From Blastomussa wellsi (Eukaryota > Cnidaria > Anthozoa > Scleractinia > Plerogyridae): DNA of 64,000 nt. The stretch is from assembly GCA_947652115.1 (NCBI GenBank), contig OX393564.1, positions 13,031,097 to 13,095,096 of the forward strand, written 5' to 3'. Made by a program: the position numbers and the translations under genes. This document shows positions 1,341-32,371 of this stretch, piece by piece. A model generated the notes under the pieces. It was given only the letters and a program-made list of their open reading frames with translations, made no database searches and was not told the DNA's origin. Each line of letters opens with the position of its first letter. Position 1 is the stretch's first letter.

Positions 1341-1347
1341 GCAAAAC

Positions 1348-4662: not shown

Positions 4663-4850
4663 ATCCCAAGGACACGGACAACATCGCGCGCAAAAAGTCA
4701 ATCAAAGGATCGACAAAAAAGGTTTCTTTTTCCTGAAACGTTTTTGAGTCACTTACAGTCCAAAAATTTTGGTTATCATCGCATTTTTCCTAACATTTGC
4801 CTTTTTTATTATCACACCGTTGCGTCCACTTCCCATTTTTCAAAAAACAT

Positions 4851-5562: not shown

Positions 5563-5574
5563 TAGTTGTATTTT

Positions 5575-6249: not shown

Positions 6250-6298
6250 TTTGTATATTAAACAGAAATTTTTTTTTACTCAATAGACTTGCTTTGCA
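6250..6298. promoter_or_regulatory. Divergent promoter between capsid and acidic-protein genes (element A)
   Basis: Only 49 bp separate two outward start codons. The spacer TTTTGTATATTAAACAG, followed by a T run and AATAGAC, is nearly identical to the spacer at 28795-28833 in element B, although the flanking genes have diverged. The TATATTAA core is a TATA-like candidate. The regulatory role is inferred from position and conservation. Confidence 0.45.
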
Positions 6299-6739
6299 AT
6301 GGCGGATGGTGGCGGTTTTGAAAATCCTGGTTATGATCCACATCCCTTTGGTCACGAAGACCTTGACCTTGACGATGCTATTGACAACGATGGCGATGAC
6401 GATGAACAAGAGGAAAATCGCCAAAACACAACCACTCCTTTTTTGCCTGACACCGCTTCGACACCCTATCATGGTGGTGAAGAAATTGAAATGGAAACCA
6501 GGCTTCACGAACATAGCGGACTGCCTGACACTTCTTACACCGAGGAAACTCCATTGATAGGCAGCGGTGAACTCAGCAGTGAACGAGCTTGGATTGTGAC
6601 AAAAGAGATATTTCCGGAGATGAGCGCAAGTGAGCTTGACGTATTTTTCACCCCAAAAGGAAAGCTTCAAGTTAAAATGTTTGGAGCTGGAAAAAAGGCC
6701 TATGACCTGTTTACCACAAAAATGGGTTCAAAACAATAG
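6299..6739 (+). CDS. Acidic protein of the virion block (element A)
   Basis: 146 residues, starting MADGGGFENPGYDP, with a strongly acidic stretch (DDAIDNDGDDDEQEEN) at residues 28-43 and a lysine-rich tail. The frame stops at TAG (6737-6739) but stays open afterwards to about 6890 with a charged coiled-coil-like segment, so the stop is probably a mutation and the protein was longer. The paralogue in element B is at 28873-29370. It is divergent from the capsid gene and convergent with pX. No family is recognised; an internal virion or membrane-associated role is possible but unsupported. Confidence 0.5.
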   Translation: MADGGGFENPGYDPHPFGHEDLDLDDAIDNDGDDDEQEENRQNTTTPFLPDTASTPYHGGEEIEMETRLHEHSGLPDTSYTEETPLIGSGELSSERAWIVTKEIFPEMSASELDVFFTPKGKLQVKMFGAGKKAYDLFTTKMGSKQ

Positions 6740-6856
6740 CAAGTTAATCCATGGCTTTCCAAAGAAATAAAAACTGCCCTCGGAAAGTCCATTTATGAAT
6801 CTCAGGAAGCCGTTCAGCAACAACTGGCTGAAAAACAAAAAGAACTGGAAAAATCT

Positions 6857-7697
6857 TTATCTATGGCAAAAGGTCGTGAACAAGTTAAAGTTATGAGACT
6901 CACTGCCCGAACCAGCCGCGGGCACTGGTTCTTCTGTTTCAACCGTTGGTGCTGGAGTTTGATTCTCTGTTTTGGCTGCAGGTTCTTTTTTCGATTCAGC
7001 TGTGGCTGCTTTGTGCATAGGATTGGAAGGATGGCTGTTTGGCGGGTTAATTTTCGATCTCCCGCCATCCATGTGCTGAAGCGCAGCTTTTTTCGTGCTT
7101 TTGTTTGCCCCGTCGTTGACCCCCAGCTTCATACCCGGAATCGCTTGTTTGAGCTGGTTGTTGTAACCAACCGTGCTTTCTGTGTTTATAATCATCCGCG
7201 CGGGCATAAGCCAGGCTCCCGGGCAAACGGCAAGGTTCAAACGTACCTTTGCTTCATCTACCGCCAGTTGATAACGCTGCACGCTTTTTGCAAGGTCAGG
7301 CAGCCTTACTGCGTCTTCCACCAAGACGTTGAACTCGGTCTGGGCCTCCTTTGCTCCGCCTCCCGCCCCCAGAATGCTGCTGCGGACGTTGACTTGCGCA
7401 CCTAAAATGCAATACACAAATGCTTCAATCGACTGGTTTATTCTCGACAAACCTGCCTGGGTCAAACCTGCTGTGGTTTTTGGTGCTAACCAGTTGAATT
7501 GCTCTTCAGCTGCATCATTTCTTATGAAACAAACTGATATTCCCTTTTCTGTCGCTCTTGGATCCTCGTCATCGAATTTTGCTTTTGCTGATGGATAGGG
7601 AACGTTCAGGATGAAAGGATCGTGACAATAAATATAAACGCTTCCTAGCCCGTGGTTCGGACCTATTGTAAACCGGAAATCTGTTGATGGAGGAACG
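6857..7697 (-). pseudogene. pX, C-terminal part (element A), separated from its start by the Gypsy insertion
   Basis: The minus strand encodes the second half of a protein whose first half lies at 12297-13049. Here are NHGLGSVYIYC, a repeat-free middle with RINQSIEAFVYCILGAQV, and a proline-, glutamate- and threonine-rich tail ending near 6857. The Gypsy element and its GTGAA duplication lie exactly between the halves. The element B paralogue (29380-30311) lacks this C-terminal half. Function unknown; its place among capsid genes suggests a structural or assembly role. Confidence 0.65.
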
Positions 7698-7702
7698 GTG
7701 AA

Positions 7703-7873
7703 TGTAACAATAGTGATTGTTTAGAATGAGTCTTTGTTAATCGAATTGTGTAATCAGTCTAGGATCGAGTTACCTGGTGTAGAATGGGACGTGTGGGATT
7801 AAACGTGTGCTTGAATAGTGCCATTCTGTGTGTCTATTATTGAGTTCTCTGCCAGTGAACAACTATTGAAACA
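7703..7873 (+). repeat. 5' LTR of the first Gypsy element
   Basis: 171 bp, TG...CA termini. The sequence just after it, TGGTGGCAGCGGTGA, is in the position of a primer-binding site. Confidence 0.95.
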
Positions 7874-7951
7874 TGGTGGCAGCGGTGATTTTCGTTTAAC
7901 ACCACCGTTGTGTCGACCGTAGCGCCTGATAGCGTCGGAAATCAAAAAGAA

Positions 7952-8824
7952 ATGCCTCCGCCTGATGAAGCGAGTCAAGCGAGCGGCGATCAAGCGACAC
8001 CGCCCCCAGCTCCGGGAATGTCCAAGGTCGCGATCAAACCACCGATGAAGCTCAATCTTCGAGAAAACACATCGGAGAATTGGAAAACCTACAAACGACA
8101 GTGGCAAAATTATGCGATTGTCACACGCCTGGCCACACAGCCCGATGATTATCAAGTCGCGTTATTTCTCCACTGTTTGGGTTCCGATGCGTTGCGTGTT
8201 TACAATGGCCTGTCTTTTGAGTCAGAGGAAGACAAGAAGAAATTGCCAAAGATTATGGAAAAGCTGGATGAGTTTGCGATTGGAGAGGTGAACGAAACCT
8301 ATGAGAGATACGTTTTTAATAGCCGAAACCAAGAAGCAGACGAAACCATTGATGCTTATGTGACAGCGTTACGCAAACTAGCGCAAACCTGTAATTTCTG
8401 CACGTGCCTGCACGACAGTCTAATAAGAGATCGCATCGTTCTGGGCGTAAGGAGCAAGCAGATAAGGAAAAGGCTTCTCCAAGAGAGAAAACTCAACCTT
8501 GGTAAGTGCATTGACATATGCCGAAGCTCCGAAGCAACAAGTTCGCAGTTACAAGCGATTTCTGGCACAGATACCGGAGAAGTAAACAAGATAAGACAGC
8601 GCGAATCTAAGGTCAAGACTCCGAAAGATGACAAGACACGCAACCCAAAAGGAAACCGCCAGAAATGTCGTTTCTGCTGCGGAGAGCACATACTCAAGAA
8701 AGAGAAGTGTCCAGCCTGGGGAACAAAGTGCCTAAACTGCGGAGGACGAAATCACTTCGCAAAAGCCTGTCGTAAATCGAAGAAATCACCACGATTTGAC
8801 GCCACGGTCAAACAGATCGAATAA
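7952..8824 (+). CDS. Gag of the first Gypsy element
   Basis: The first ATG after the 5' LTR in this frame is at 7952 and gives a 290-residue protein. It starts with a proline-rich linker, then has a helical capsid-like region (WKTYKRQWQNYAI ... ALRVYNGL) typical of Gypsy Gag. It ends with two zinc knuckles: an atypical C-x2-C-x3-H-x6-C (CRFCCGEHILKKEKC) and a canonical C-x2-C-x4-H-x4-C (CLNCGGRNHFAKAC). Gag packages element RNA into particles. The frame ends at TAA (8822-8824), with pol continuing in the same frame at the next codon. Confidence 0.9.
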   Translation: MPPPDEASQASGDQATPPPAPGMSKVAIKPPMKLNLRENTSENWKTYKRQWQNYAIVTRLATQPDDYQVALFLHCLGSDALRVYNGLSFESEEDKKKLPKIMEKLDEFAIGEVNETYERYVFNSRNQEADETIDAYVTALRKLAQTCNFCTCLHDSLIRDRIVLGVRSKQIRKRLLQERKLNLGKCIDICRSSEATSSQLQAISGTDTGEVNKIRQRESKVKTPKDDKTRNPKGNRQKCRFCCGEHILKKEKCPAWGTKCLNCGGRNHFAKACRKSKKSPRFDATVKQIE

Positions 8825-11800
8825 TTGTCTGACGTCGACTCCGACTCCGACTCTAGCGACGTGGATTTCATCACTAGCATCTCTACTACAGTCAGCGCCG
8901 TAAATTCGGAAAATCCACCGAAATCTAGCTACGCGAAGGAAATTTACACCATGATGGAAATCGGAAATCGTGCTGTCAAATTCCAAATTGACTGTGGGGC
9001 GTCGATAAACATCATCACTGAAGCACTTATCGGCAAATCTGTCATCACATCGACATCTAAGCGACTCGTAATGTGGAATAAAACGGAAATTACCCCGCTT
9101 GGAGCGACAAGAATGGTACTTCGAAATCCCAAGAATCGGAAGAAGTACTCGGTCGAATTTGTCGTTGTAAAGGAGAATCTTACTCCACTTATTGGTGCAC
9201 AGGCAGCCCAACATATGAAGCTCATAACGGTAAACGAAGAAAATTTCGTCACGACATCTCCACCCGGTTCAAAGCAAGCAGAGGTTAAAGTCCATAATGC
9301 AGCCGAAGAAGTCATTAAGCGATTTTCTGACGTGTTTGATCGTCCGGTAGGAACGTTTCCCGGCAAGGTTCACCTGGAAGTTGAAGCAAATGCAGTACCG
9401 GTCATCATTCCGCCACGACGAATCCCCACAGCTCTGAAAGATAAGTTCAAAGAAGAACTGACCAAGCTAGTGAAAGAGAAAATTATCGCTCCTGTGGACC
9501 AGCCTACCCCGTGGGTAAACAGCGTCGTCGTGACCACAAAGAAATCTGGCGCCCTGAGGGTCTGCGTTGATCCAAGACCCTTAAATAAAGTGCTGAAGAG
9601 AGAAACCTATCCAATGCCCATCTTGGATGAAATACTACCCGAGCTATCCAAGGCGAGAGTCTTTTCTACCGTCGATCTTAGATCTGGCTTCTGGCATTGT
9701 GTTCTCGACGAAGAGTCAAGTCTTCTGACAACCTTTAACACACCGTACGGAAGATACCGCTGGCTCAGGTTACCGTTTGGCTTATCCGTATCTCCAGAGA
9801 TTTTTCAGAAGCGTGTCAACCAGACCTTAGAGGGACTTGAAGGCGTCCTCAACATCGCCGATGACATACTGGTCTATGGGGTTGGAGATACAGCGGAACA
9901 AGCGAATGCTGACCATGACAGAAAGTTAGAAATGCTTCTGCAAAGATGCAGAGAACGTGGTATAGCTTTGAATCGAGACAAGATCAAGCTGCGCCTCAAG
10001 AGAGTAAAGTTCATGGGCCATGTTCTAACCGACCATGGTTTGGAGCCGGACCCAGACAAGATCGAAGCAGTTCTCGATATGCCTACACCACAGAACGTGG
10101 AGGATGTCCAGCGTCTAAATGGCTTCGTCACATACCTCTCAAAGTTCATGCCAAAGCTCGCAGATGTAATGGAGCCGATTAGACGACTCACACGTAACGA
10201 TACTGAGTGGCAATGGTCAGAAGAACAGGTTTCAGCCTTCCAGAAAGTAAAGACACTGGCAACAGAAGCGCCAATCTTGCGCTACTATGACCCCACCTGC
10301 CAGTTGGAGGTACAGTGCGACGCCAGCCAAAAGGGACTAGGTGCGGCTCTAATGCAAAGTGGCCAACCCATTGCATACATCAGCCGGGCTCTGACCCCAA
10401 CGGAACAGAGATACGCACAAATAGAGAAAGAGTGCCTTGCCATCGTCTATGCTCTGGAGCGATTCCATCAGTACACCTTTGGGCGAAAGGTCCTCGTGTA
10501 CAGTGACCACAAGCCGCTGGAATCGATCCTACGGAAGCCACTAGCAAGCGCACCACGGAGGCTACAGGGCATGATGATGCGTCTCCAAAAGTATGACGTC
10601 ACAGTCAACTACGAGCGTGGTAAGAACATGTTCCTGGCCGACCTGCTTTCAAGAGCATATCTCCCAAAGAAACCAGAGTCGGAAGACCGAGAGTTCGAGT
10701 TTGTCAACATGGCTAGTTGTGTGCCCATCTCTGATCCAAGACTGGAAGAAATCAGACTAGAAACACAGGCAGATGAGACAATGCAAGTCCTCACAAAGGT
10801 GATCCTGCAAGGCTGGCCTGATGACAAGTCTTCGGTACCAACCTTAGCACTTCCCTTCTTTAGCCAGAGAGATGAACTGACAGTTCAGAATGGTTTAATC
10901 TTCCGAGGGGAGCGAGTAGTTGTCCCAAAGAAGCTAAGAGAAACAATGAAGCAGAAAATACACTCTTCACATATGAGTACAGAAGCCTGCCTCAGACGAG
11001 CCAGAGAGTGCATATTTTGGCCTGGAATGAGCGCAGAAATGAAGCAACTAGTAGAATCGTGCGAGACCTGCAGACAGTACGATAGAGCTCAACCGAAGGA
11101 AACCCTGAAGAGTACCCCTGTACCAAAACGACCATGGGAACGGATCGCCACTGACCTGTTCTCCTACAAGGGCAAAGACTTCCTCATCACGGTAGACTAC
11201 TACAGTAACTTCTGGGAAATAGACCAGCTGGCAAGTACAAGTGCACCTACAGTCATCACCAAGCTAAAGAATCACCTCGCCAGGTATGGGTGCCCGGACA
11301 CTGTAGTCAGCGACAACGGTCCCCAGTTTACCTCCCAGGAATTTGCCCACTTCTCCAAGACCTAGCAGTTCAAACATCGCACAATCAGCCCAGGCAATAG
11401 CAAGGCCAATGGAAAAGTAGAGGCTGCGGTAAAGACAGCAAAACAGCTACTGAGGAAATCCAGCGACATTCATCTTGCACTGTTAGACCACCGCAATACG
11501 CCATTCCAAGGAACATCCGCCAGCCCAGCTCAGCGTCTCATGAGCAGAAGAACCAAGACTTTGCTACCCACTACCGAAGCACTGCTGAAACCTCAAGTAC
11601 CTGATGTTGACGAGCAGCGACAGCTCTTACGCCAGCAACAGCTCAAGCAAGCGCAGTACTACAACAAGACGGCTAGAGATCTGCCAAAGTTAGAAATTGG
11701 CGACGTAGTGCGTATGAAACCAATTAAGAAGCACGAGCGCAAGTGGCACAAGGCGACAGTTACCAGCAAGAAGGACGACCGATCGTACGAGGTTGAAACT

Positions 11801-12037
11801 CCAGAAGGAGGGACATACCGCCGCAACCGCTTTCATCTGAGGAAGACCAGAGAGTCCCCCCCACCGAAACCGGTTGAACCTGCAACACCTGATGATCAAC
11901 CAGCAGACCTGCCACAACCATCGGAACTACCAGCGTCCGCACCGCCACAGACTGTTCCAGCTAGCGCCGAGACCAACTCAAGACCAATCCGTAACAGACG
12001 ACCGCCGTCGTACTTGAGGGATTATGTGCGTTATTAA
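8825..12037 (+). pseudogene. Pol of the first Gypsy element: protease, RT, RNase H, integrase
   Basis: A frame of about 1,070 codons with one internal TAG at 11363-11365. Protease FQIDCGASINII is near residue 55, reverse transcriptase has LPFGLSVSPE and NIADDILVYG near residues 315-347, RNase H starts QCDASQKGLG near 497, and the integrase has an HHCC zinc module (HSSHM ... CETC, residues about 712-760), ATDLFSYKG and SDNGPQFTS. The catalytic Glu segment NGKVEAAVK lies beyond the TAG. The TAG replaces a residue between KT and QFKH. There is no ATG at the pol start; expression would need suppression of the gag TAA or a reverted stop. The tail is proline-rich and ends before the polypurine tract. 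Confidence 0.93.
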
Positions 12038-12106
12038 CGGACTTGTCGTAGAATGAACTCAAAGACTTGTGATTTACTAACTTTGATTCGAACTGTGATC
12101 TAGTTC

Positions 12107-12120
12107 TAAAACGAAGGGGA
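12107..12120 (+). other. Polypurine tract of the first Gypsy element
   Basis: The purine run ending CGAAGGGGA directly precedes the 3' LTR, the expected priming site for plus-strand DNA synthesis. Confidence 0.7.
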
Positions 12121-12291
12121 TGTAACAATAGTGATTGTTTAGAATGAGTCTTTGTTAATCGAATTGTGTAATCAGTCTAGGATCGAGTTACCTGGTGTAG
12201 AATTGGACGTGTGGGATTAAACGTGTGCTTGAATAGTGCCATTCTGTGTGTCTATTATTGAGTTCCCTGCCAGTGAACAACTATTGAAACA
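12121..12291 (+). repeat. 3' LTR of the first Gypsy element
   Basis: 171 bp, two differences from the 5' LTR (near 12204 and 12265). Confidence 0.95.
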
Positions 12292-12296
12292 GTGAA

Positions 12297-13049
12297 CTCT
12301 GTACATAATCTTTTGAAAGAAGCTTCGTCATATTTGTTGTTAAACTGACTCCATGTTGGGTCGCCAGGAAGCGCGCTAACGCTTTGGATTCCTCCTAGCT
12401 GAAATAGGATGCGTCGAACCGTGAAGTACACGTGGAAGATGTAAAACGCCCGTACCTGTGGCGGCAGCTTCAGCGTGCTGTCTTTGTCAAATAATTCTCG
12501 TGATATTCCGCAACCTGTTGTCGCACACCACGCTGCAAAGTTCAGCTGCTGTTCCCAGAAAGACAAATCTGGCCTCGCCAGCCATTTTTTCGCGGGCTTT
12601 GACGTTTCGAATTCCACTTGTTCCTTGGTTAATATCTCTCTAAACTTTGTTGTGAAATACTGGTCAGGGGTGACATAAATTTTGATTGCTTTGTTGAATA
12701 TTTTTTTCAAACTCGGTGCCGCGTCATGAAATTCAACTGCTGGAACCGCCAGTGAACTTTTTTCTTGGCGTGGCGACAGTTGGAAAGGAAAACCGTCAAC
12801 TTCAACCAAACCCAGAGCTCTTTTTATTTCTGCGCTCCAATATTTTGAATCTGATCCGAATACGCTTTCCAAACTGTCGGGTCCCTCTTTCCAGAATATT
12901 TCAGCTGTTGCTGTGTTGTCCGGTGCAAAAAATACCTGGGCTTCAAATTTGCTTTTGTCTGCCCTTGGAAACCGTGCTGAAAAAGCTGTCCACGCCTTGT
13001 TTTGTGCGAGCTTCGCATTCGCGGCCTGTGCTACTTTCCCGAGAAACAT
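12297..13049 (-). pseudogene. pX, N-terminal part (element A)
   Basis: Starts at the ATG at 13049 (MFLGKVAQAANAKL); the same start region in element B is MLGYLGKIAQAANAK at 30311. The product continues with FFAPDNTATAEIFWKEGP, SFWEQQLNFAAWCATTGCG and VRAFYIFHVYFTVRRILFQL, then reaches the Gypsy insertion. No signal peptide or long membrane segment is visible. The sequence is close to the B copy throughout. It is divergent from the small capsid-like gene across 57 bp. The product is of unknown function within the virion gene block. Confidence 0.65.
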
Positions 13050-13106
13050 TGCGTTTATATATTTCAAGATTTTTTCAATTGAAAATTTGTTCGGAACAAA
13101 ATAAAA
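13050..13106. promoter_or_regulatory. Divergent promoter between pX and the capsid-like gene (element A)
   Basis: A 57-bp spacer with GCGTTTATATATTTC next to the pX start and TTTTTCAATTGAA in the middle. The spacer at 30312-30366 in element B keeps the same GCGTTTATATATTTC and TTTTTCAATTGAA. The TATATA core is a TATA candidate for one or both genes. Confidence 0.45.
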
Positions 13107-13541
13107 ATGGTTGTGCTTACCGTTTCTTCGTCTTCCAATCCATGCACCGTCTATTTCGATAACCCGATTCCAAAGGCTGATTTCGTCCGCCTGTTGTCTT
13201 GTTCACTTCCAAATTCATGGAACAATTTGAAAAAAGATGGTGTTATTGCGATGTCTGATCGAGATGGCAAAAATGCTGTTCCCATAACATTCCCAAGAGG
13301 GCATTACACTCTTGAAAGTATGGCTCAAAATATAGAACACGCTTTCGCTAACTTTGATGTTAAACTTCCCACTCAAATTAATACACCGGTTGGGGCAATG
13401 ACAGTTGCCAACTTTGAGAATAAAATAATTTCTCTTGACAAAGACCTGGCCAATTTTCTTGGCATTTCCCGCACATTCATGTTTAGAACTTTCGTCAAAC
13501 GGCTTCGAATACCGACAAGCTACTTTGCCCATTGCGACTAG
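13107..13541 (+). pseudogene. Small capsid-like (penton-type candidate) protein, truncated (element A)
   Basis: 144 residues starting MVVLTVSSSSNPCTVYF. It matches the 201-residue product at 30367-30972 up to YFAHCD, where this copy hits TAG. Predicted beta-rich sequence with an ITFPRGHYTLESMAQNIE element and FLGISRTFMFRTF. The missing C-terminal 57 residues and the first part of the next gene were removed in one deletion. Its size, beta-richness and place among capsid genes fit a single jelly-roll minor capsid protein, but that is inference. Confidence 0.55.
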
Positions 13542-13550
13542 ATCTCCAAA

Positions 13551-14084
13551 ATTGAAAAAGAAATTGCCGATGAGGTTGAACACCGGAGGCTTGTGTTGAA
13601 AAAATACACGAAAGCCCGCAAAGTGATTCACTATTCCGCGGGGTCTCTCGGCGTTGGAAGTGCCTTTCTGTCTTCTGGTGCCGTTGCGAGTTCTTTAACC
13701 GGCGTTGGTATTGTTGTCGGGGCGCCTGTCGCCGGAATAGCGGCTCTACTTGGATTTGCTTCAACTGGCCTTGCTGCTGTTAACAGGAAGCTTGCGAGGA
13801 AAGTCAAAAAGCACACGAAAATTCAAGCTTTGGCTCAACCTGAACACGACTCTATCAAAAGTTCCGTTTCCCAAGCTCTGGATGACGGCGTTGTTTCCGA
13901 CGCTGAATTCAAAATCATCTCTCGTGAAATGGAAAAATTTCGTGAACTCAAAGAGAGACTTCGGGTTAACTTCGCCGAACATTCCGATTCTCCTGATGTT
14001 GAAACGATAAAAAAACAGGTTCGCGCCGAACTTCGGAAAGAGTTTCAGAAAAAAATGTCGGCGTCCAGCGCAAATTTGAACTGA
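13551..14084 (+). pseudogene. Glycine-rich hydrophobic protein of the virion block (element A)
   Basis: An amphipathic start (ISKIEKEIADEVEHRR) leads to a long Gly/Ala/Ser-rich hydrophobic stretch of about 50 residues (LGVGSAFLSSGAVASSLTG, then VGIVVGAPVAGIAALLG) with GxxxG spacing. A basic segment and a charged helical tail ending SASSANLN follow. The paralogue at 30997-31624 has an extra N-terminal piece (MSSSNVLPSAPPIYLELPYW) that the deletion removed here. The glycine-zipper character suggests membrane insertion, for example a membrane-active virion component. That role is inferred only. Confidence 0.55.
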
Positions 14085-14733
14085 ACTTTGTATCGAAACA
14101 AAGAAAAATCTTTCTGAGTGTTATTTGCGCGTGACGTTGTGTGATGTTGTCACGCGTGACGTTGTGTGATTGTCACGCACCACATTGCGTGACAGGTCAC
14201 TCACAGGGACGAAACCCTGTGTCGGGGGTGCTCGGTGGCTGTTTGTTGCCTGGCCCCCGCCAGGACTTTCGCGCCGCTGACAAAGTGGCTGTCAGTTCCC
14301 ATTTTACCTCTGGGAGCGAGGTTTGAAATCCCTCGGGATCTCGGGTGGTATCCCGAGGGATTTCTGAGCAGCCCCTGTTAACCAGTAGGGCCCAGGCGGG
14401 TTCACCCGAGGGGCTTGTCCCACTGGAAGGACTTCCCCTATACCTGGTGGTTCACCATCCGCACAAGCCTTTAGCAGGATTCAGACCGGGGCCAGCGGTC
14501 ACCTCCCAGAGCTTCACCAGAATTTGTGAACTTACTTGTTCTTTTTCTGTTCGCTTATTTATTGTGTCCTGTCTGGTGTTTTCTTCAAATTGTGGTGGCC
14601 TTTCTTTACCCCTTGCAAAAATCCCCTTACGCATGCGATTTCCGGTGATGATGAAATTTTCGCCCCAGAGCCCTTCGTTTGAATTCGGAGAGAGCCTGGT
14701 GAAGACTTCCTGTTTTCTGAGAAACCAGTCTTC
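14085..14733. other. Non-coding interval of element A with GTGACG repeats and a hairpin
   Basis: Similarity to element B stops at about 14125, just after the glycine-rich gene. The interval has short GCGTGACGTTGTGTGAT repeats at 14131-14200 and the perfect hairpin at 14326-14363. Short minus-strand ORFs in 14450-14770 are not conserved elsewhere in the window and no gene is supported. Confidence 0.5.
14326..14363. repeat. Perfect 14-bp stem hairpin
   Basis: AAATCCCTCGGGAT at 14326-14339 pairs perfectly with ATCCCGAGGGATTT at 14350-14363 across a 10-nt loop. Confidence 0.9.
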
Positions 14734-15119
14734 TCATAAATAGTCAAAATATAAATTCTCGGGCCATGCTTCAAATCGGTAATCCGGAAATTCTTCTAGT
14801 TCATAATCGAAGTAACGTACTGGTCGGCTTAAAAAGTGAATCTTTCTGTTTTTGAAACACAGTCTACAAAGTTCATTTGTCTCGTCTGTGTAATTATTTT
14901 TTCGAAGCAAAACTTTTGCGACTTGTTGTTTCTCTGTGCAACATGGCGCCGATTGAATTTGGAGGTGAATGTCGTAGCCGTGGTCCAACTTTTCTTTGAT
15001 CTTGTAAGATATTCTTTGTTTATTTTCTCACGAAGTTCGGCTGGAAGGTTTTGAATTGCCTCTGTTATCGTGTCGCAGAACGGATTTGCTTCGCCGACTT
15101 GCAGAACATTTGCTGCCAT
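14734..15119 (-). pseudogene. TIR-embedded ORF at the right end of element A
   Basis: Starts at 15119 (MAANVLQVGEANPFCDTITE) inside the right terminal repeat, the counterpart of the start at 1348. It is followed in a second frame by a segment containing LCRLCFKNRK and ending ENLYFDYL at 14734. A frameshift near 15000 joins the two. The C-x2-C pair might bind zinc. Its place, first gene reading inward from the terminus, matches the Cys-rich gene of element B, but the sequences are not clearly related. Function unknown. Confidence 0.45.
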
Positions 15120-15615
15120 GTTTTCGTTTATTCTTCTGCGGATATTTCTTCCGATGGAAAATTAATTCTGGTGCAAATACTCTGTTCTTTCATTTCTTCA
15201 AATGGTTCCTCTTCCTCCGCTTGGGTCACGCTCTTTTGTTCTGGATCTCTTTCGCCGTCCTTCGCTTGGCTGGTTTGTTGTTCTGGTTTCCCGCTCACTT
15301 GTTTGGTTGCTTTTCTCTTGCTTTCGCTTGGCTTGGCTGGTTTGTCCGCCGCTTGGTTTCTCCGCCGCTGCTGGTTCACTGTTGGTTCACTGTTGGTTCA
15401 CTTTTGGTCCACTTTTGGTGCTCTGTTGGTACACTGTTTGTGCACTGTTGGTGCACTGTTGGTGCACTTTTGGTGCAACAGCTTTGACACCAGTACCGCT
15501 TTGCTAAGTGCGCCTGAACCCCTAAAAATTTGTTTATACAGGTGCGCTAAGTGCACCAGAACCCCTTAAAATTTGTTTGTACTGGTGCGCCAGAACTCCT
15601 ATCTTTTTTGTGTGT
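15113..15615 (-). repeat. Right terminal inverted repeat of element A
   Basis: Reverse complement of 698-1355 apart from fewer 11-bp units and a single 55-bp unit. It ends CCTATCTTTTTTGTGTGT, directly followed by the ATAGC duplication. Confidence 0.85.
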
Positions 15616-17208: not shown

Positions 17209-17400
17209 ATGTCCGACAACAAGTTCGTCAAAACCGTCATGGATGCCGCCACCCTTACCGGCCTAGCTGCTGGCATAGAAAAGTTTTACTGCTGACCCTT
17301 CTAATTCTATCGAAAACTACGCAATGTTCACAGCTGTAATGGCGGGGAGCGCTTCGCTCAAAAAGTATTTGGAGGACCCAACATGGCAAGTGTCGCGATT
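17209..17400 (+). pseudogene. E2 gene 4: small hydrophobic protein
   Basis: Starts MSDNKFVKTVMDAATLTGLA. A small deletion and frameshift near 17280 follow, then DPSNSIENYAMFTAVMAGSA in another frame. The element B copy (23740-23962) shows the undisturbed order, about 75 residues with two short hydrophobic helices. The end overlaps the start of gene 5. Confidence 0.5.
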
Positions 17401-17734
17401 ATGGTTGGCGGGGCTGTGTTGAACGCAACGGCTTTCATCGGCGGTAATTATCTCGTGAGGGCTTTTGGGGGCGGTGACAAACCAGCGCAAGAAGAAAAAG
17501 TGCACCATGATAAAGCTCTCGAGCCGTACCAAGCTGCGTACGCAAAATACGCACGTGACCACACCAAACTTCTCGACTGGACTGCGACAAACGCGCAAAT
17601 AAAGGAGGAGGCCAAGCAGAACTTCACCAACACTGACTACGCCTTCAAACTCTACAACAGGGTGCACCCTGAAGAACGGATGGCACCTCCCATAGAGCCC
17701 AAGTTCTCTGATTTCTATCAGCCAAGCGAGCAGC
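17383..17734 (+). pseudogene. E2 gene 5, 5' part, interrupted by element B
   Basis: Starts MASVAIMVGGAVLNATAFIG, a likely membrane segment, followed by a charged helical region (EEKVHHDKALEPYQAAYAKY) and an aromatic motif PKFSDFYQPSEQQ. Element B is inserted inside the Gln-Gln codons; the remaining C terminus, with a second membrane helix, lies at 32291-32364. The paralogue in element B (23269-23694) shows the full layout of about 140 residues with one hydrophobic helix at each end. Function unknown; it precedes the integrase gene in both elements. Confidence 0.7.
17730..17734. repeat. Target site duplication of element B, left copy (GCAGC)
   Basis: GCAGC precedes the left end of element B and follows its right end at 32286-32290. 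Removing the element and one copy restores the reading frame of E2 gene 5, which confirms the boundary. Confidence 0.85.
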
Positions 17735-17899
17735 AGTAGTATTAAGGGGATTCGACAAATACCACCTCGTCGCTTAACCGTTGTCACATCTTCGCCCAAG
17801 TGAAACAAGCTCGCTTTTTGCTCGCTTCTTCCACTTGGGCGAAGATGTGACAACGGTTGAGCGACGAGGTTGTATTTGTCGAATCCCCTTAATACTACT
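17735..17899. repeat. Left terminal palindrome of element B
   Basis: Two 68-nt arms pair at 66 positions around a 29-nt loop centre. The outer end reads AGTAGTAT. The mismatches are at positions 29 (outer C, inner A when both arms are read from the end) and 41. As a single strand this would fold into a long terminal hairpin. Confidence 0.95.
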
Positions 17900-18152
17900 T
17901 GGCAGAAGAACACCCACTGTCACGTTCTTCCAATTAGAGAGAAGTGGCGGAGTCCAAAAATGGCAAACAACTGCGAGTGGTTGCTGCGAAACCGGCAAAA
18001 GAACTGCGGCAAAAAGTGCAGCGGGCAATATTGTTATCAGCACAAGTGGCAAATCAAAAAAGGAATGCAACACCCGGCGCCGTGCCGCAGCTGCGGAATC
18101 GGTGTTTTAACCGACAACCGGCTATACGTGTATTGCGGAGAGGACACGTTTC
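17735..18152 (+). repeat. Left terminal inverted repeat of element B
   Basis: About 418 bp matching the reverse complement of 31868-32285 with few differences. It covers the palindrome, a 60-bp spacer and about 190 bp of the Cys-rich gene, diverging after GGACACGTT. Confidence 0.85.
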
Positions 18153-18238
18153 AAAAGCGGCTAAAACGAATAGAGAAAAAAGCGAAGAAAAATTTTGAAC
18201 TTGTTTTGCGCGAGCTCCAAAAAAGATCAACCATTTAG
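17960..18238 (+). CDS. Cys-rich (zinc-binding) terminal protein of element B, left copy
   Basis: 92 residues from the ATG at 17960 (MANNCEWLLRNRQKNC). Cysteines 5, 16, 20 and 25 with His28 could form one zinc site, and CRSC (42-45) opens a zinc-ribbon-like second site. In the right-end copy and in fragment D the partner is C-x2-C (CVYC, CKKC); here the first Cys is Tyr56, so that site is damaged. A basic helical tail follows. It is the first gene next to the hairpin at both ends. A DNA-binding role at the termini is a reasonable guess; no known family is recognised. Confidence 0.6.
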   Translation: MANNCEWLLRNRQKNCGKKCSGQYCYQHKWQIKKGMQHPAPCRSCGIGVLTDNRLYVYCGEDTFQKRLKRIEKKAKKNFELVLRELQKRSTI

Positions 18239-18332: not shown

Positions 18333-21300
18333 ATGGCTGAGCAAGTGACGTTGCAGGATATGGAAGAAGCCCTCGCGGAAATTGACATTGAAAAACTGCT
18401 AGAACAATTAAAACCCAAGGTGTTTGAGGAACGCATACCCCCGGAAGCCCTGGAGCGGCTGCCCGAACCTCTGCTTCCAAAACCCTACAGCCCCATCGTA
18501 CCTCCAAGGCGAAAAAGAGGGACACCAGACAGCGTTCTAAAAATGTTTGATCCAGTCCTTCCCCAGACAGTAAAATCGAAAGAAAAATACCGCGAATCTC
18601 TGGCATGGTTCATGCATGAACCAGAAGCTGAGGGAGTGGAAAGAGGACGCCATTTTATAAATTGGGCGTTCCGGGCGCGAAACGAAAACATGACAGAGGA
18701 AATCATGGAAAAGATCCGGGGAAGAGTTAACACCTCGATGTATATAAGGTACGCTTTTTCTTGTTGGTTGCGACACATTCAAGAGGGTAAGATGATGTTG
18801 TTTTATCAACAATTTAAAGGTTCGCCCTGGATAAACCGATTTTCAGAAGCGGAAAAATATTTGAATGAAAGGGAAGCGGACCGTCTGGATACCGATAACG
18901 TCGAAAGACCGAACACAAGTTGGAAGTTCGTTTGCTATAATGATGTTTTTGTGAAAGTTGTTATCGATCGCGCGCCTTTATTAGGGACAGGTCCCTTGCC
19001 AGACTGGCTACGCAACCTTGCACACAGCAAGGCAATGCTGGCGTTGGACACTTTCCCAGATAATTTATGTCTCTGGCGTTGCATTGCTGTGCATCGAGGA
19101 GCCAGACCGGATCGAAGTACAGCATCGGCCAGAGGACTTGCCAAGAATTTCTACGATTTCGCAAAAGCTCCAAAAGACATTCCAAAAACGTCTCTTGACG
19201 AATCAAAAGCGTCTTTTGACGATTTAGAAGATGTTGAAAAGCATCTAAACAAAAAAGTGGCTTTTTCAGATTGCCTTGGCATCAATGTTTATGAGCCTGA
19301 GCAAGAAAAATCTGGCGAAGTGGTTTGGCATTTAAGACGAAACGCGCCAGCCAAGCTGAAAAACATTATGACAATCGGCATCTGGGAGGGACATGCTTTT
19401 TTGATAAAAAACATAGCAAAGCTTTGCGAAAACGTATGCGTGTGTGGATTGCCGAGCGAGATTCACACAAGCTTGTCATCTAAAACGGCATGCCCAAACA
19501 TGTTCTCAAGGGAATACGAAAATTGTTTGCCCGGGCGAAAAAGTCGAAGCCCCCCAGACATCTTTCAAAAAAGCGTTTTATCCAGACAACAAGGCTTCCC
19601 CAGAATAGCTACGGTGGTTAGACCAAGAAGTCAAGCGGCGGAAAACCCACATCCATCACGCAATGTGTGGTCACGGAGGTGAGAGGTGGATTCTTGGTGC
19701 GCCAGTCGACGGCTGGCACCCAGAAACAAAGACAGTGTTTGAATACCACGGCTGCCACTGGCACGGGTGCCGAAAATGTTTCCCGCATGATCGTTACAAA
19801 ATAATAACGCATAACGACCAAACGCGCGAAGACAGGTGGAAGGCCACACATTGGCGAACAGAAGCTCTCATAGGGGCTGGTTACCGCGTGGTCCAGGTTT
19901 TGGCGTGTGAAGTTGGAGAAATCGATGTTGAACCTCCGCAGACCAAAACAAAAAGCTACCCGCACGCGATCCTGTATGATTTCGAAGCATTTGGCGACAA
20001 GACTCAGGGGAAGGAGCCTACGACCATGCTTACGATCGAGAACGTGCACGTCCCAATCTCTGTTAGCATCGGCGACACGCTCGAGAGAGAGCCCACTCAC
20101 ATCTGTGAAAGAGACCCTACAGAGCTAGTTCGCAAGTTTATGAAAGAGCTGGAGAGACGCGGGAAAAACATCCGGCGCAAAGTCTGGGAAGAGTTCGCGC
20201 CAGAAGACTTGGACCTGCTGTCGAAAAAGCAGCGACAAAAAATTGGGGAATGGTGTGACCAGGTGCCGGTCGTCGGTTTTAACTCGGGCAGTTACGACCT
20301 GAACTTGATTAAAAGCTTCTTTGTGGAGCGGCTTGCAGACACAACCGGAAAAATCAGAGTTGCGAAAAAAGGAAAAAAGGTTATGTTCTTGTTGACCTGG
20401 GGCTTCCGTTTCCTAGACATAATAAACTACCTTGGCCCAGGGACCAGCTACGAAAAGTGGGTCCGAGCCTACGGATGCACAATGCAGAAATCGTGGTTTC
20501 CGTACGAGTGGTTCGATTCACCCCAAAAGCTCGACTATCCAGGGCTCCCAGACTATCCAGAGTGGTACTCGCGTCTGAAGAACGAGTACCTGCTATCGAG
20601 AGAAGAATGGGAAGGATGCAAGCGCCTGTTCAAAGAAAAGGGAATGCGCACTTTCGCGGACTGGTTACGTTTTTACAACAATCTCGACGTGGCGCAAAGC
20701 GTCGAGGCTTTGGAAAAGATGCGGTCTTTCTACACCGAAAAAGGAATCGACATCTTGAAAGACGCGGTCAGTGTCCCGGGGGTGAGTTTGCACTACTTAC
20801 TCCGGGGAGCGGTCGAGAGAGGCGCGGATATTTGGAGGCCAACGCAAGAAGCGTATCAAATGTTGAAAGGCGCTGTGGTCGGAGGCCCGAGCATCGGGTG
20901 TGTGAAAAAATAAGCCGGTGTGAAAAAATAAGATCGCACCAATACGAAGACGCCCGTGCGTGCAAAAAGATCTTGGGCTTCGACGCCAACGCCCTCTATC
21001 TGTCGACCATGCTGAGAGAAATGCCTTGCGGAAAGGAAAGGGTCGAGCACTTCAACTGCCCAGAGGACGCAGCGTTTGTGATTACGCACAAGCTCAAAAG
21101 AGGAACATGGTTCGGATACGCCGAAGTCGATATTGAGATTCCGGAGGCCCTGCACTCGAAGTTCGAGGAAATGTGTCTGTTCTTCTACAACAAAAAGGTG
21201 CCGGACGCAGTTGTCCCGGAACACATGTTCGAATACTTGCGACAAACGGGAAGAAATCGCGGAGACGGGAAAAAGCTCGTTGGAGCTTTGTCCGCAAAGA

Positions 21301-22239
21301 GACTTTTGCTCTTTGCGCCTCTGCGGCGATGGTATGTTGACCACGGGGCGGTTATCACAAACGTTTACAGAACAATCGATTACAAACCAGGCAAGATATT
21401 TCCGTGGTTCGTGGAGCAGGTAACCAAAACGCGGCGAACAGGAGACGTGGAAAAAAGCAAGGCGCTGCTGGCAGACGTTTTCAAGCTGCTTGGGAACAGC
21501 GGGTACGGAAAGTTGATCGGAGCGTTGGAGCTGCAGACGAGCGCGATTTACACCAAAGATGAGAAGGTGGTTGACAGAGCCCTGCGAAGCGCGTATTTCT
21601 CTGACCTTGATGAGATCGGGCCGGAAGCGTATGAGCTGGAAAGCCAGAAGCAAAGAATCACAATCAAACGGACGTTTCAGGTTGGAATCGCTGTCTACCA
21701 GCTGGCAAAGCTGCGGATGCTGGAATTCTATTTTGACTTCCTCGACAAATATTTCGACCGACGAGATTTTGAGCTGATTCAGATGGACACAGACAGCAAC
21801 TACATGGCCATCTCCGCGGAGTGTCTGGAGGATCTTGTCAAGCCGGAGCTGCGGACGGAATTCGAGGCGCAGAAGCAGCAGTGGCTTGCTTGGGACAAAT
21901 GGAGCGGCCGCACGCCCGGGCTCTTCAAACTCGAGTGCGAGGGCAGCCGGATGATCGCGCTCTGCTCAAAATGTTACTTCATCGACGACGAAGCGGGAGA
22001 AAAAAGGAAGTTCAGCACAAAAAGGAGTTTCGAAGAGGCAAAACGAAATATCCTGGCAGCGTTTCAAAGCAGCTTTGGAAGGAAACAAGGACATGGCAAC
22101 CAACAGAGGTTTCAGAATGCGGGATGGAAAGATTGTCACTTATGAACAGCAGAAACTGGGGCTGAGCGCCTTTTATGACAAAAGGTGGGTGCTGCCCGAC
22201 GGAATTCACACAGAACCAATAGAATTTCACTTATTTTGA
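18333..22239 (+). pseudogene. B-family DNA polymerase of element B (PolB type 2)
   Basis: About 1,300 codons from MAEQVTLQDMEE at 18333 in four frame segments, with breaks near 19670, 20905 and 22095. A CLWRCIAVHRG region (near residue 250) and EYHGCHWHGC (near 470) precede the exonuclease: Exo I LYDFEAFG (about 545), Exo II GFNSGSYDLNL (about 645), Exo III YNNLDVAQ (about 782). Palm motifs: A FDANALYLS (about 880), B LLGNSGYGKL (about 1050), C QMDTDSNYM (about 1151). All catalytic acidic residues are present. At 20905 a short unit, GTGTGAAAAAATAAG, is tandemly duplicated and introduces stops. It is convergent with the integrase. The element would replicate with this enzyme, presumably protein-primed or hairpin-primed; the mode is not shown by the sequence. 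Confidence 0.9.
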
Positions 22240-22493: not shown

Positions 22494-23246
22494 TTAGATG
22501 TCAGCCGGCGGGAGAACGGTGTTTGGTGGAACAACCAGCAGCTCTTCACGCACAAAACTGCGTCCTAGACCGTCGCGCAAATAGTAGAGAACAGGTTGCT
22601 TCGGTTTGATCAAAACTCTTTCTATGTTGTAAACTTTCAACGACCAGATCGGATCTGTGGCACTTCTTCCGCCGCCTTCCAACTCGCCGGGTTGGTAGAG
22701 ATAACGAACTTGGACAAGAGAAGGGAGGATTTTTTCGGCTTTCCCAACTGGCCGAAGATAAGGAGTGGCAGGTTGCGCAGAAACAGCTTTTTCTTTGATT
22801 GCTTCCGCAGGTTTTTTCCCCGTCAGCCGAGTTTTCTCGTTGTTCAGAGCGGCGACAACTAGAGGAAGTCTTTTTTTACCCACGCAGTAGATCGCTGACC
22901 TTCTGGAAAACGCATTTCAACAGCATACTGATGCCCGAACAAGCGCTCGGCGAGGGTGCGGTTGAAACGTTCCACAATGGCCTGGTCGCGGTGAATCTCA
23001 GGTCGCCCGCGGCGGATAAAGGTTTTGTGTTTCTCCATGGACCGCATTGGGCGTGGGAACATCAAATTATGGTCTTGGAATGTGCCTCTGAGCGGGCAGA
23101 TAAATCTGACACAGAGCTTGTTTGACTAACCACTTTTTTGCAGCGTCTTCAGACACCTTTGCGGCCTCGGATAATTTTTTGATAGCTGCAAGGCCTTTCC
23201 AATAGCCTCTCGGACCGTAGTATATCTTTGCGAGTTTGGAGTCCAT
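22494..23246 (-). pseudogene. rve integrase of element B, catalytic core deleted
   Basis: Starts at 23246 (MDSKLAKIYYGPRGYWKGLA) with a helix-turn-helix-like N terminus, then jumps at about 23065 from the segment before the first catalytic Asp straight to SMEKHKTFIRRG, so both aspartates are lost. VERFNRTLAE remains, followed in another frame by the C-terminal part with DPIWSLKVYNI and VREELL. E2 (32472-33440) shows the missing part. It lies just downstream of gene 5 on the same strand. Confidence 0.85.
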
Positions 23247-23268
23247 CACTAAAGGAGACAAAAAAAGT

Positions 23269-23694
23269 TTAAAAGAACCGGAATGCTGCATAGCCAAGAG
23301 CGACAGCCCCGGCGCCAACGAACGCGAGTTCAGCATTTTTCTGCTGCCGGCTCGGCTGATAAAAATCAGAGAATTTGGGTTCTTTGAGAGGCGACATGCG
23401 TTCTTCAGGATGTGTCTGGTCGTATAGTTTTAGGGCATAGTCAGTGTTAGTGAAGTTTTGCTAGGCCTCCTCCTTCATCTCTGTATTTCTTGCAATCCAA
23501 TCGAGAAGTTTGGTGCGGTCTCGCGCGTATTTTGCGTACGCAGCTTGGTAGGCCTCGAGAGCTTTATCATGCCGCACTTTTTCTTCAAGCGCAGCATCGT
23601 CGCCTCCGCCAAAAGCTTTCGCGAGATAATTACCGCCGATGAAAGCCGCCGCATTCAGCACAGCTCCGCCAACCACAATCGCGATACTTGCCAT
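23269..23694 (-). pseudogene. Element B gene 5
   Basis: About 141 codons from MASIAIVVGGAVLNAAAFIG with one in-frame TAG at 23461-23463. After the stop the frame continues through PKFSDFYQPS to a C-terminal hydrophobic helix (FVGAGAVALGYAAFRF). It is the uninterrupted paralogue of E2 gene 5. Its end lies about 22 bp before the integrase start. Confidence 0.6.
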
Positions 23695-23739
23695 TTTTTT
23701 CTTATATTTATTTTTTCAAAATGTTGGTCGAAAGGATTT

Positions 23740-24012: not shown

Positions 24013-24076
24013 GTATAACAATATAATTTGGTTTTATCAACTGGGTTGATAATGTCAATTGGCCACCGTAAAGAGA

Positions 24077-24125
24077 TTCAAGTGCTGACGTTTCGAGCGT
24101 TAGCTCTTCGTCGGAGCGAATCAAG
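24077..24125 (-). ncRNA. Possible hammerhead-like ribozyme core in the Penelope 3' region
   Basis: On the minus strand CTCCGACGAAGAGC, loop TAAC, GCTCGAAACGTC resembles a hammerhead core: a CUGANGA-like box with one change, a 4-bp helix II, GAAA and a GUC. The inverted copy lies at about 25965-26005. Penelope elements are known to carry hammerheads, but helices I and III are not evident here. Confidence 0.3.
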
Positions 24126-25612
24126 GAATTGTGCGTCGTGTGTCTTTATATACAGAAAGATGGAGTTTCGCTATTGGCTGGTGCCTGGTAACGTGAAAAC
24201 TTCGGAATAAATTAGTTGAATGAAAAGCGTTCGTTGATACCGTGAGGATAAGAGTGCCGATTTGAAAAATAAATTTTTGTTCTAGAGTTTTACGGCTTTC
24301 CGTGTTTCCTTGGTGAAGGGAAAGGCCGCAGACTGTCATATGTTGCTTAGAATGATTTGGGAGATTGAAGTGTCTCGCGACCGGTTTCGATGCATTTTTG
24401 TCGTCTTTCTCTACGTCACGAAGGTGTTCTCGGAATCGCTCGCCAAGTCGTCTCCCTGTTTCGCCGATGTATAACTTTTTGCAAAGAGTGCAAGTTATGC
24501 AGTAGATGGCATTGGCTGAGGTACAGGTGAAATGATCAGTGATTTTGATAGATCGCTTGGGTCCCGATATTTTGTCAACGTTGTGAATGAAAGGGCATGT
24601 TTTGCATCGTGCGCGAGCGCATTTAAAAGTTCCGGGTTGATCACTAGTTTGGAATGCACTTCTGACTAAAAAGTTACCTATGTTTTTGTCGCGTTTAAAT
24701 GAAATTAATGGAGGTTGCGAAAAGATTCTACCAGTGTCGGGATCATTTTGAAGTAATTTAAAGTTCTTGAGAATGATGGATTTAACTGCGTGGTTGTGAG
24801 GGTGAAATGTGAGGGTGAATGGAATTCTATCGTTGTTTTCTATCTGTGACGTTTGTAGTGCTAACTGTCGATCAATTTGCTGGGCGCGATGATGGCCCGC
24901 TTGAACAACAGAAGCAGGATAGTCGCGTTTGTCGAAGAAATTGCACATTTCCTCTGATTTTAAGGAAAAATCAGAGTCGTCACTACAAAGACGGCGAAGT
25001 CTAAGAAACTGAGAATAAGGAATGGAATTCTTGACATGTGATAGATGTGAAGATGAATATAACAAATAGCTATGAGAATCTGTGGGTTTGTAGTGCACAC
25101 TGGTGCATAAACTGTTGCCTTCGATAGAAACTTTGATATCCAGGAATGCTAAGGAAGTATCGGGAATTTCCCAGGTATATTTAAGGGCAGGATGAAACGA
25201 ATTAACAGCGGTTATAAATTGATTAAGTTCCTCTCTGGTAGAAGAGGTAGCGCCGATACAGTCGTCAATGTAGCGACGATAGAGTTCAGGTTTTGGGCCG
25301 TTCTATTGATTGAAAAATTGGTGTTCAATGTAGCCTACGAAAAGATTGGCGTAGCTGGGTCCCATTTTGGTACCCATGGCCACGCCATTGATTTGTTTGT
25401 AATAATTGTTCGCGAATGAAAAACAGTTGAGTGTTAACACTAACTCAGCCAGGCGGAGTAGTGTTTCCGAGCTTGGTTCCTTAACAGTGCGTAAATCAAA
25501 AAAATGTTTGAGGGCTAGAAGACCTTCGCCATTTGGGATGACGGTGTAAAGAGATGTAATATCCATAGTGAAAATAAGTTTGTCTTCGCCCAGGAAATTG
25601 AAATCGAAGTTA
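24121..25612 (-). pseudogene. Penelope reverse transcriptase fragment and GIY-YIG endonuclease
   Basis: One frame with a TAG at 25303-25305. Upstream: TMDITSLYTVIPNGEG and INGVAMGTKMGPSYANLF, then after the stop LYRRYIDDCIGAT, the catalytic YIDD box. The C-terminal part has a CxxC-rich linker (CARARCKTCPF), then AIYCITCTLCKKLYIGETGR, the GIY-YIG motif of Penelope endonucleases, followed by RFREHLRDV. The N-terminal fingers of the RT are missing through 5' truncation. The enzyme would nick target DNA and prime reverse transcription. Confidence 0.92.
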
Positions 25613-26105
25613 TACATCGACGAAACAGGGAGACGACTTGGCGACCGATTCCGAGAACACCTTCGTGACGTAGAGAAAGAGGACAAAAAATGCATCGAAA
25701 CCGGTCGCGAGACACTTCAATCTCCCAAATCATTCTAAGCAACATATGGCAGTCTGCGGCCTTTCCCTTCACCAAGGAAACACGGAAAGCCGTAAAACTC
25801 TAGAACAAAAATTTATTTTTCAAATCGGCACTCTTAATCCTCACGGTATCAACGAACGCTTTTTATTCAACTAATTTATTCCGAAGTTTTCACGTTACCA
25901 GGCACCAGCCAATAGCGAAGCTCCATCTTTCTGTATATAAAGACACACGACGCACAATTCCTTGATTCGCTCCGACGAAGGGCTAACGCTCGAAACGTCA
26001 GCACTTTAATCTCTTTACGGTGGCCAATTGACATTATCAACCCAGTTGATAAAACCAAATTATATTGTTGTCAGAGATGTTGGTTATAAAAAGAGAGAAA
26101 ATTAT

Positions 26106-27633: not shown

Positions 27634-28794
27634 TTATTTCCGTTGGGCACCGAATTGCGCACTCAAGGTAGGAAAACTTATTTTTCCCAATTTAAAAATG
27701 TTTTCTTGGAACTCCTTTTTAGTAAGGATGTTGCCGGCGAATTCTTCATAAAAATATTTCAAAGACTTCAGTGAGGGCGCTCTTCGCTCCAGAACTTTTT
27801 CAGATTCATGTTCTGTGTTTTGTTTTTTTGCCTTGCCAAAGAAGCGGTCAACTTCGCCCCAAAAATCTTTTCCTTCGATGCCGTTGTTGTAGAGCCTGTT
27901 GGGCCAGCCATTCACCGTAACAGCGACTTTCGTCAGATCTGGGTTGATGAACTTTTCTAAATCCCTGTAAGAATTCCTTTCATGGATTTTCTCTGAGGGT
28001 TCACTCTGAGGTTAATCCTTGAGTCGGCGCTTTTTGAAAATGTGACCACCTGCTCCCGCACCACGTGGTCGTATAAGAACTCCTTTCCCGAGGAGTAAAC
28101 ACTGCTTGCATCGTCCGCCAAGGTCTTGCTTCTAATCATTTCGTACTCAAGCTGGATGTTTTTCAGCTTGTATTGCAGTTTATCCGGATCAGAGCCTTTG
28201 AATACCTGTGAAACTGGTGCAAGTTTCAACTCAAAAACGAAATTGTGATTGAGCGCTTGGGGATAAAAGACTCCGTGGTCGTAGAGTATCTGGTGGTCCA
28301 GTCGGATCCGGTATTTTGTTCCGTAAACTTCAGCTAGCGCGTTTTCCGCGTCGACACCCGAGGTTTTCTTATCCTCAGTATTTGAGCGGATCTTGCAGAG
28401 ATCTTCGCTTTGAATTCCGTCGAGCAGCATGCCGTCACGCTCCTCCTGCGAGAGAAAAAGGTCCTCCCAGATCTCGTAGATGTCATAATCCAACGTATGC
28501 TGCAGTGGCTCTCCAGCGTAATTCACAACCACCTTGTCAACAAGAGCCCGTGTGACGTTTCGAACGAGGAAGTTGGCCGGGTGCCCTCCAGACAGGTCAA
28601 TGTTGAAAAGCAGTCCGAGAGAGCCTGGAACGATGACCTCGTGCTCATTCAGTTTAAGCACGTAAATATTCAGGAGCTTGCCAGGGTTGGCTTCGCTACG
28701 ATCAAAGGTGATGCACTTGACCGTGCGCTCGGCTTTCATCGCTTTGGGATTTTTTTTCACTGTATGTTGGAAGAAGGTTTGCTTGCACCGCCAT
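27634..28794 (-). pseudogene. Major capsid protein of element B
   Basis: The most complete capsid gene in the window, starting MAVQANL at 28794. A run of eight A causes a frameshift within 20 codons (element A has six), then 268 codons are open (28760-27957), and another frameshift near 27955 leads to FINPDLTKVAVTVNG and a divergent C terminus. Segments such as LNEHEVIVPGSLGLLF and ALVDKVVVNYAGEPL fit the first beta-sandwich of a double jelly-roll. Total about 385 codons, shorter than typical Polinton capsids. It would form the hexameric capsomers. Confidence 0.65.
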
Positions 28795-28833
28795 TTTGTA
28801 TATTAAACAGAAAAAAATTTTTATTCAATAGAC
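28795..28833. promoter_or_regulatory. Divergent promoter between capsid and acidic-protein genes (element B)
   Basis: TTTTGTATATTAAACAGAAA followed by an A/T run and CAATAGAC, nearly the same as at 6250-6298. Confidence 0.45.
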
Positions 28834-32060: not shown

Positions 32061-32285
32061 TTTTGGACTCCGCCACTTCTCTCTAATTGGAAGAACGTGA
32101 CAGTGGGTGTTCTTCTGCCAAGTAGTATTAAGGGGTTTCGACAAATACAACCTCGTCGCTCAACCGTTGTCACATCTTCGCCCAAGTGGAAGAAGCGAGC
32201 AAAAAGCGAGCTTGTTTCACTTGGGCGAAGATGGGACAACGGTTGAGCGACGAGGTGGTATTTGTCGAATCCCCTTAATACTACT
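31868..32285 (-). repeat. Right terminal inverted repeat of element B
   Basis: Inverted copy of 17735-18152; ends with ATACTACT followed by the GCAGC duplication. Confidence 0.85.
32121..32285. repeat. Right terminal palindrome of element B
   Basis: 165 bp, 68-nt arms matching at 65 positions. Read from the outer end, position 29 is again C in the outer arm and A in the inner arm, as at the left end. Confidence 0.95.
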
Positions 32286-32290
32286 GCAGC

Positions 32291-32364: not shown

Positions 32365-32371
32365 ACTTTTT

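Follow-up and report, generated by a model that had tools for sequence, protein, structure and literature searches.

Terminal palindromes with a covarying outer stem at the ends of Polinton-like elements in Blastomussa wellsi: possible re-copying of the last 28 nucleotides

A stretch of 64,000 nucleotides (nt) from Blastomussa wellsi (assembly GCA_947652115.1, contig OX393564.1; C5:13031097-13095096), hereafter called the window, carries Polinton-like elements, of which B and D possess palindromes at their termini. Searches of the 368-Mb genome showed that a large Polinton-like family truly terminates in these palindromes. Different elements vary much more in the terminal stem than in the sequence around it; within one element both ends have the same stem, and position 29 forms a sharp border. 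The reading favoured here, at a probability of roughly 0.55, is that during replication the single-stranded end folds back as a hairpin, on which the inner arm would serve as template for renewing the terminus. Folding, copying and marking of the end are deduced from integrated copies, in which form alone the elements are known here. It is an open question how the last bases of linear elements are guarded when the polymerase is protein-primed, and this genome contains many natural copies that record it.

Palindromic ends in the window and across the genome

Element B (14.6 kb) ends in a left palindrome at 17735-17899 (forward strand, 76-nt arms, 95% complementary, 13-nt loop) and a right palindrome at 32121-32285 (reverse strand, 76-nt arms, 93% complementary, 13-nt loop). 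Both are the outermost part of terminal inverted repeats, the left copy of which spans 17735-18156 on the forward strand and the right copy 31864-32285 (427-nt matching arms, 96% complementary). Directly outside the palindromes lies a GCAGC target-site duplication (17730-17734 and 32286-32290). The outer arm of the left palindrome (17735-17762, forward strand) comprises 28 nt, starts with AGTAGTA and includes a hypervariable stem at positions 8-20; the 28-nt inner arm (17872-17899, forward strand) is its complement. Position 29 of this end (17763, forward strand) is an outer C which, together with its inner partner 17871, represents a fixed asymmetry. At the right end, the outer and inner arms are located at 32258-32285 and 32121-32148. 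Element D carries a left palindrome of a short-loop type at 53215-53294 (forward strand, 32-nt arms, 97% complementary; outer arm 53215-53242, inner arm 53267-53294). Its right end was not found within the window, so that the target duplication of D has no partner end for comparison. Among 17 close inverted repeats in the window, the palindromes of B and D are three of the five longest. Comparison of the two stems showed that AGTAGTAT on the outside and GACAAATAC on the inside are identical, with 11 unrelated nt between them that are fully paired in each element. The palindromes, their positions and this stem comparison agree exactly with the first-pass annotation of the window. In element A (698-15615), the terminal repeats measure about 490-540 nt, contain many 11-nt tandem units and include no such palindrome; thus, the feature belongs to some, not all, Polinton-like elements here.

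With the palindrome core as query, 192 candidates were obtained in the genome and 40 of them scored, corresponding to 40 distinct places; the 38 outside the window were retrieved. Furthermore, an independent search with the Cys-rich protein encoded next to the palindrome gave 150 scored matches of 688 candidates; 139 of these were examined and 11 were not retrieved. Ends were counted as palindromic when at least 22 of the 28 outer positions were paired just outside the Cys-rich gene. Such a palindrome was present at 104 of the 139 ends, with 28/28 positions paired in 59 of the 104, and the same pairing test on reversed sequences gave 3/139. Among the other 35 ends, some have palindromes that are mutated, truncated or longer, and others lack one. 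Much longer palindromes with ACCCACCGTAGATATACC-like arms were observed at L104, L112, L138, L144, L154, L164, L169 and L174. Across the genome, 401 matches to the strict end pattern AGTAGTAN{15,17}AAYACCACCT were counted, as against 0 for the pattern reversed. Within the first 100 of the 401 rows, 14 single pattern places were picked by hand and read over about 200-500 nt on the inner side; seven contained a palindrome (at least 20/28 positions paired) and seven none. Viral contigs contained no relative by PolB (family B DNA polymerase) protein, by alignment or by end pattern, and prokaryote contigs gave 0 matches to the end pattern. Beyond this genome, the findings are limited to homologous proteins; among the 120 matches listed per search, the organisms given by name are the coral Oculina patagonica and one bacterial metagenome-assembled genome (Thiodiazotropha).

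Target-site duplications were analyzed for all 25 convergent pairs of ends within 60 kb among 131 palindromic ends, chosen regardless of stem. An exact 5-bp duplication directly outside AGTAGTA was detected in 19 of the 25 pairs, and all of these 19 differed at 0-1 of the 13 stem positions. Five of the six pairs without an exact duplication differ at 6-12 stem positions; in the sixth, the stems match and the duplication is off by one base. Duplications of 6 bp were found in 0 of 21 rows (20 distinct pairs, one element being counted twice), and shuffled right ends gave 1.1 exact 5-bp duplications on average. The stem is a handy genomic tag that pairs the left and right ends of one insertion.

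Covariation of the stem and its border at position 29

From outside to inside, the end consists of AGTAGTA, the hypervariable positions 8-20, a tail to position 28, the asymmetric spot at 29, a partly mismatched segment to 38, a second covarying stem, a loop of one of several types, the inner arm and the Cys-rich gene, which follows at a median distance of about 75 nt. The AGTAGT end motif is present at 96/104 ends. Of the 1040 hypervariable cells in 80 distinct stems, 1015 are paired, whereas 2000 permutations gave a mean of 475 and a maximum of 543. The co-changing arms, which the first-pass annotation had proposed to check on other copies, are kept in 104 of 139 ends. For 70 of the 80 stems, no other arm matches as well as their own inner arm, and for 10 another arm ties with it or beats it. 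Moreover, the second stem at positions 39-66 of the 157-167-nt class is paired in 920/1176 cells (0.782; permuted mean 0.485; 42 distinct outer arms from 50 ends). Between elements whose terminal repeats are 96-98% alike, 4-10 of the 13 stem positions may differ, in many cases without a mismatch within either end; other such comparisons gave 0-3 differences.

The hypervariable stem appears modular, since frequent right blocks such as GATTAA combine with many left blocks. Across 128 distinct arms, the left blocks (positions 8-12) are combined with the right blocks (15-20) at random (mutual information 3.50 vs. 3.53 for permuted data, p 0.78), and no cognate code is therefore claimed. Folding of the 97 palindromes of up to 200 nt with DNA parameters assigned the higher stability to the strand with the outermost 3' end in 87, to the other strand in eight and to neither in two. 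On the strand with the outermost 3' end, A.G accounts for 351 of 536 mismatch cells at positions 29-38, both counts being obtained from ends that share ancestry.

With end orientation set by the position of the Cys-rich gene, 99 of the 104 ends are asymmetric at position 29 and no end shows the reverse arrangement; four ends belonging to a divergent group are symmetric, and one was left unclassified. Usually an outer C faces an inner A or T, or the inner arm contains one extra nucleotide. The description of the ends of B as near-perfect 165-bp palindromes holds for their palindromic nature (arms 93-95% complementary) and has to be narrowed regarding the pairing, the well-paired unit being the outer 28 nt. 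In six ends from four elements, positions 30-38 are fully paired and position 29 is mismatched in 6/6. Since the mismatch persists there and was reached by at least three kinds of change, the one-way spot is likely selected. The common loop was found 47 times in forward and 0 times in reverse orientation, and other loops occur in 57/104 ends. The two ends of one element may share the stem and differ in the loop, as in C15:12630750/12645778 (palindromes of 117 and 80 nt) and C5:14464043/14479729 (104 and 132 nt), the terminal repeats of which are 98% similar. This finding indicates that the rewritten unit is the outer stem and not the whole palindrome, and copying seems restricted to about 28 nt.

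Proposed copying of the ends and competing explanations

According to the favoured reading, replication would begin by protein priming at the AGT repeat, for which a jumping-back mode has been proposed in Mavericks (PMC8097293). The 3' end of the displaced strand could then snap back, and the outer 28 nt would be resynthesised, presumably with the inner arm as template. Position 29 may stop the integrase or the priming machinery from using the inner copy as an end, thereby marking the true end. As the most speculative step, a Vsr-like nuclease fused to PolB might nick at the mismatch. The complete picture of a protein-primed transposon with a self-templating 28-nt hairpin telomere, a stem rewritten in all four arms, a one-way mismatch and a polymerase-fused mismatch nickase is considerably more tentative and, taken as a whole, rather doubtful. 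If true, a self-templating telomere would combine in a single element two modes of end replication, that of adenoviruses and that of parvoviruses. It would also concretely link Polintons, adenovirus-type priming and parvovirus-type hairpins, which bidnaviruses so far link through shared genes.

A rolling hairpin of the parvovirus type or a closed hairpin telomere of the poxvirus type, in which unfolding and copying involve the entire palindrome and resolution takes place at its inner border, is the strongest competitor, albeit an unlikely one. It accounts for a linear element with mismatched terminal palindromes, and an asymmetric variant, such as the left end of minute virus of mice possesses, would preserve a single orientation. 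That end and the one of LuIII are palindromic with an asymmetric doublet/triplet, one arm being an active origin and the other silent; the extra nucleotide that silences one arm in minute virus of mice much resembles the 1-nt insertion form at position 29 (PMC1185569). For the left end of LuIII, earlier work cited there had reported no form other than flip, a result that PMC1185569 itself questions. Vaccinia telomeres are likewise imperfect hairpins with mismatches that matter for the virus, but they occur in flip and flop forms and involve closed ends and concatemer resolution (PMC8956199). Inverted (flop) asymmetries or loops were sought at the 104 gene-bearing ends and none was found; together with the 47:0 orientation of the common loop (57 of the 104 ends having other loops), the 0/104 reversals argue against a flipping of the whole palindrome as in parvovirus and poxvirus hairpins. 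Nor would copying of the whole palindrome leave two ends of one element with the same 28-nt stem and different loops. Parvoviruses furthermore combine NS1 nicking with rolling-hairpin replication, whereas a PolB element with terminal repeats and integration is present here, in which only the outer 28 nt seem rewritten; no Rep/NS1-type endonuclease matched among those open reading frames (ORFs) of B, covering part of the element, that were scanned with Pfam. The idea of the first-pass annotation that the end exists as a folded hairpin copied from itself is retained as the best reading of the covariation and the true ends, but without copying of the whole palindrome after the parvovirus or poxvirus fashion.

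Somewhat less probable still is ordinary template switching or gene conversion between the arms in the host chromosome, with the palindrome itself serving only as a protein-binding site. Template switching is able to homogenise inverted repeats (PMC8604942, PMC8794818), but it also inverts spacers (PMC8604942), and 0/104 ends are inverted at position 29. The stem is, moreover, common to left and right ends lying 5-52 kb apart. For the decay comparison, 16 of 20 pairs with inner repeats at least 90% alike were used. In these, the two arms of one end diverge by 2.0% (18/896) and the left and right terminal repeats by 2.3% (65/2773), that is, at about the same rate, which points to matching set up before integration and speaks against chromosomal conversion; the arms seem to decay freely after insertion. 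No clear trend between repeat age and arm identity was observed, and the per-pair correlation is not significant (rho -0.36, p 0.18). Among the four pairs left out (81-89% alike), three have only a short stretch of repeat in common past the palindrome and the fourth is out of register; with all 20 pairs, divergence amounts to 4.6% for the repeats and 2.1% for the arms.

It is very improbable that selection acts on a transcript of the end that folds into an RNA hairpin. A long covarying stem would fit it, and G.A-rich asymmetric spots are common in RNA too. The stem is, however, almost purely Watson-Crick: 36 of 83 stem mismatches are G.T or A.C, divided 21 vs. 15 between the strands, with no clear wobble excess on either, which points to copying at the DNA level. 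Differences at 4-10 of 13 stem positions between elements with terminal repeats 96-98% alike (0-3 in others) likewise disagree with it.

A foldback miniature inverted-repeat transposable element (MITE) sitting at element ends by chance has an equally slight probability; where the Cys-rich gene is present, the duplication outside the palindrome is matched by one at the opposite end of the element. Solo palindromes would favour it; the first 100 rows of the 401 pattern matches represent 90 places, 10 of which (20 rows) are solos, six of them in one cluster. A script detected exact 5-bp duplications in three of six solos checked (L178, L179 and L181, none in L177, L180 and L182), and L027 has TAACC on both sides as read by eye. 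In five of seven solos read (L178-L181 and L027), the outer-type C occupies position 29 on both sides, as internally deleted elements would show. This suggests that the outer arm is enough for integration and that the inner arm would not serve as an end. The palindrome is thus not mostly a free MITE, the finding which the first-pass annotation had named as speaking against its proposal: 5-bp duplications mark true ends and solos remain a minority. The six clustered solos at C1:14080227-14168992 share the same spacing, and the shared flanks of L178 and L179 apparently reflect one insertion that was duplicated.

Element membership, related systems and neighbouring features

Several characteristics place element B close to Polintons/Mavericks. 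Terminal inverted repeats of hundreds of bp and the (AGT)2 end motif are present, and a family B polymerase of the protein-primed type is predicted at 19942-22145 (forward strand, two overlapping frames). The polymerase ORF of B scored 22 bits against PF03175, below the cut-off of 25.8, and homologs exceeded it (P0123 with 59.4 bits, P0149 with 48.5). Target duplications are 5 bp instead of the 6 bp of Polintons/Mavericks, for which reason the name Polinton-like was chosen. For a retroviral-type integrase, two fragments of B gave 0 Pfam matches; a piece of the neighbouring element C (32472-32849) matched rve with an E-value of 0.0015 and 19.2 bits, below the cut-off of 32.6, and PDB sequence searches gave no match. 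A jelly-roll capsid is weakly indicated at 27957-28799 by a match to Capsid_N below the cut-off (E 0.042).

A possible Vsr-like nuclease domain with several weak matches precedes the exonuclease domain of the polymerase (19663-19938, forward strand). A single-sequence PDB search returned unrelated matches and a profile search placed zinc fingers above Vsr chains; in a second structural comparison, Vsr came seventh and ninth, and unrelated chains reached the same Z. On this weak evidence, the PolB-fused domain is a candidate end processor. The phrase Vsr together with Polintons was absent from the literature searched. The Cys-rich protein of B (92 amino acids; 17960-18238, forward strand) is encoded within the terminal repeat, 60 nt from the palindrome, with a partial copy at about 31854-32060 on the reverse strand; that of D is encoded at 53310-53567 (forward strand). 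Its predicted structure was of low confidence (pLDDT, predicted local distance difference test, 60) and was not used. In C2:9974311/9988707, C2:24050980/24069458 and C22:8814979/8838332, the terminal repeat extends little beyond the palindrome plus about 46-62 nt, and the Cys-rich gene is apparently lost or broken at one end.

A deletion derivative of the Kalilo linear plasmid, a linear element of the PolB kind as here, reportedly forms hairpins as well, in that case as a deletion product. Vertebrate Mavericks share with the present elements an AGT repeated twice at the end, terminal inverted repeats and a family B polymerase, and their size range of 12.7-24.6 kb includes the length of B (PMC8097293). 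They differ by 6-bp duplications, and "hairpin" and "palindrom" have 0 occurrences in PMC8097293. Polinton-like viruses have duplications of 5-6 bp (PMC12220804). Bidnaviruses likewise combine a Polinton-derived PolB with terminal repeats, but these are said not to form hairpins of the parvovirus type (PMC4061559). Palindromic Polinton ends were not described in the titles and abstract openings of the literature searched.

Element B is itself inserted in another element, the flanks 17380-17736 and 32286-32402 both matching 23224-23697 inside B. Between 98% inverted repeats, positions 24017-26069 of B contain reverse transcriptase and GIY-YIG-like ORFs, a set reminiscent of a Penelope-like element. 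Outside B, an unrelated inverted repeat with 67-nt arms (85%) at 35810-35981 is perhaps a separate MITE.
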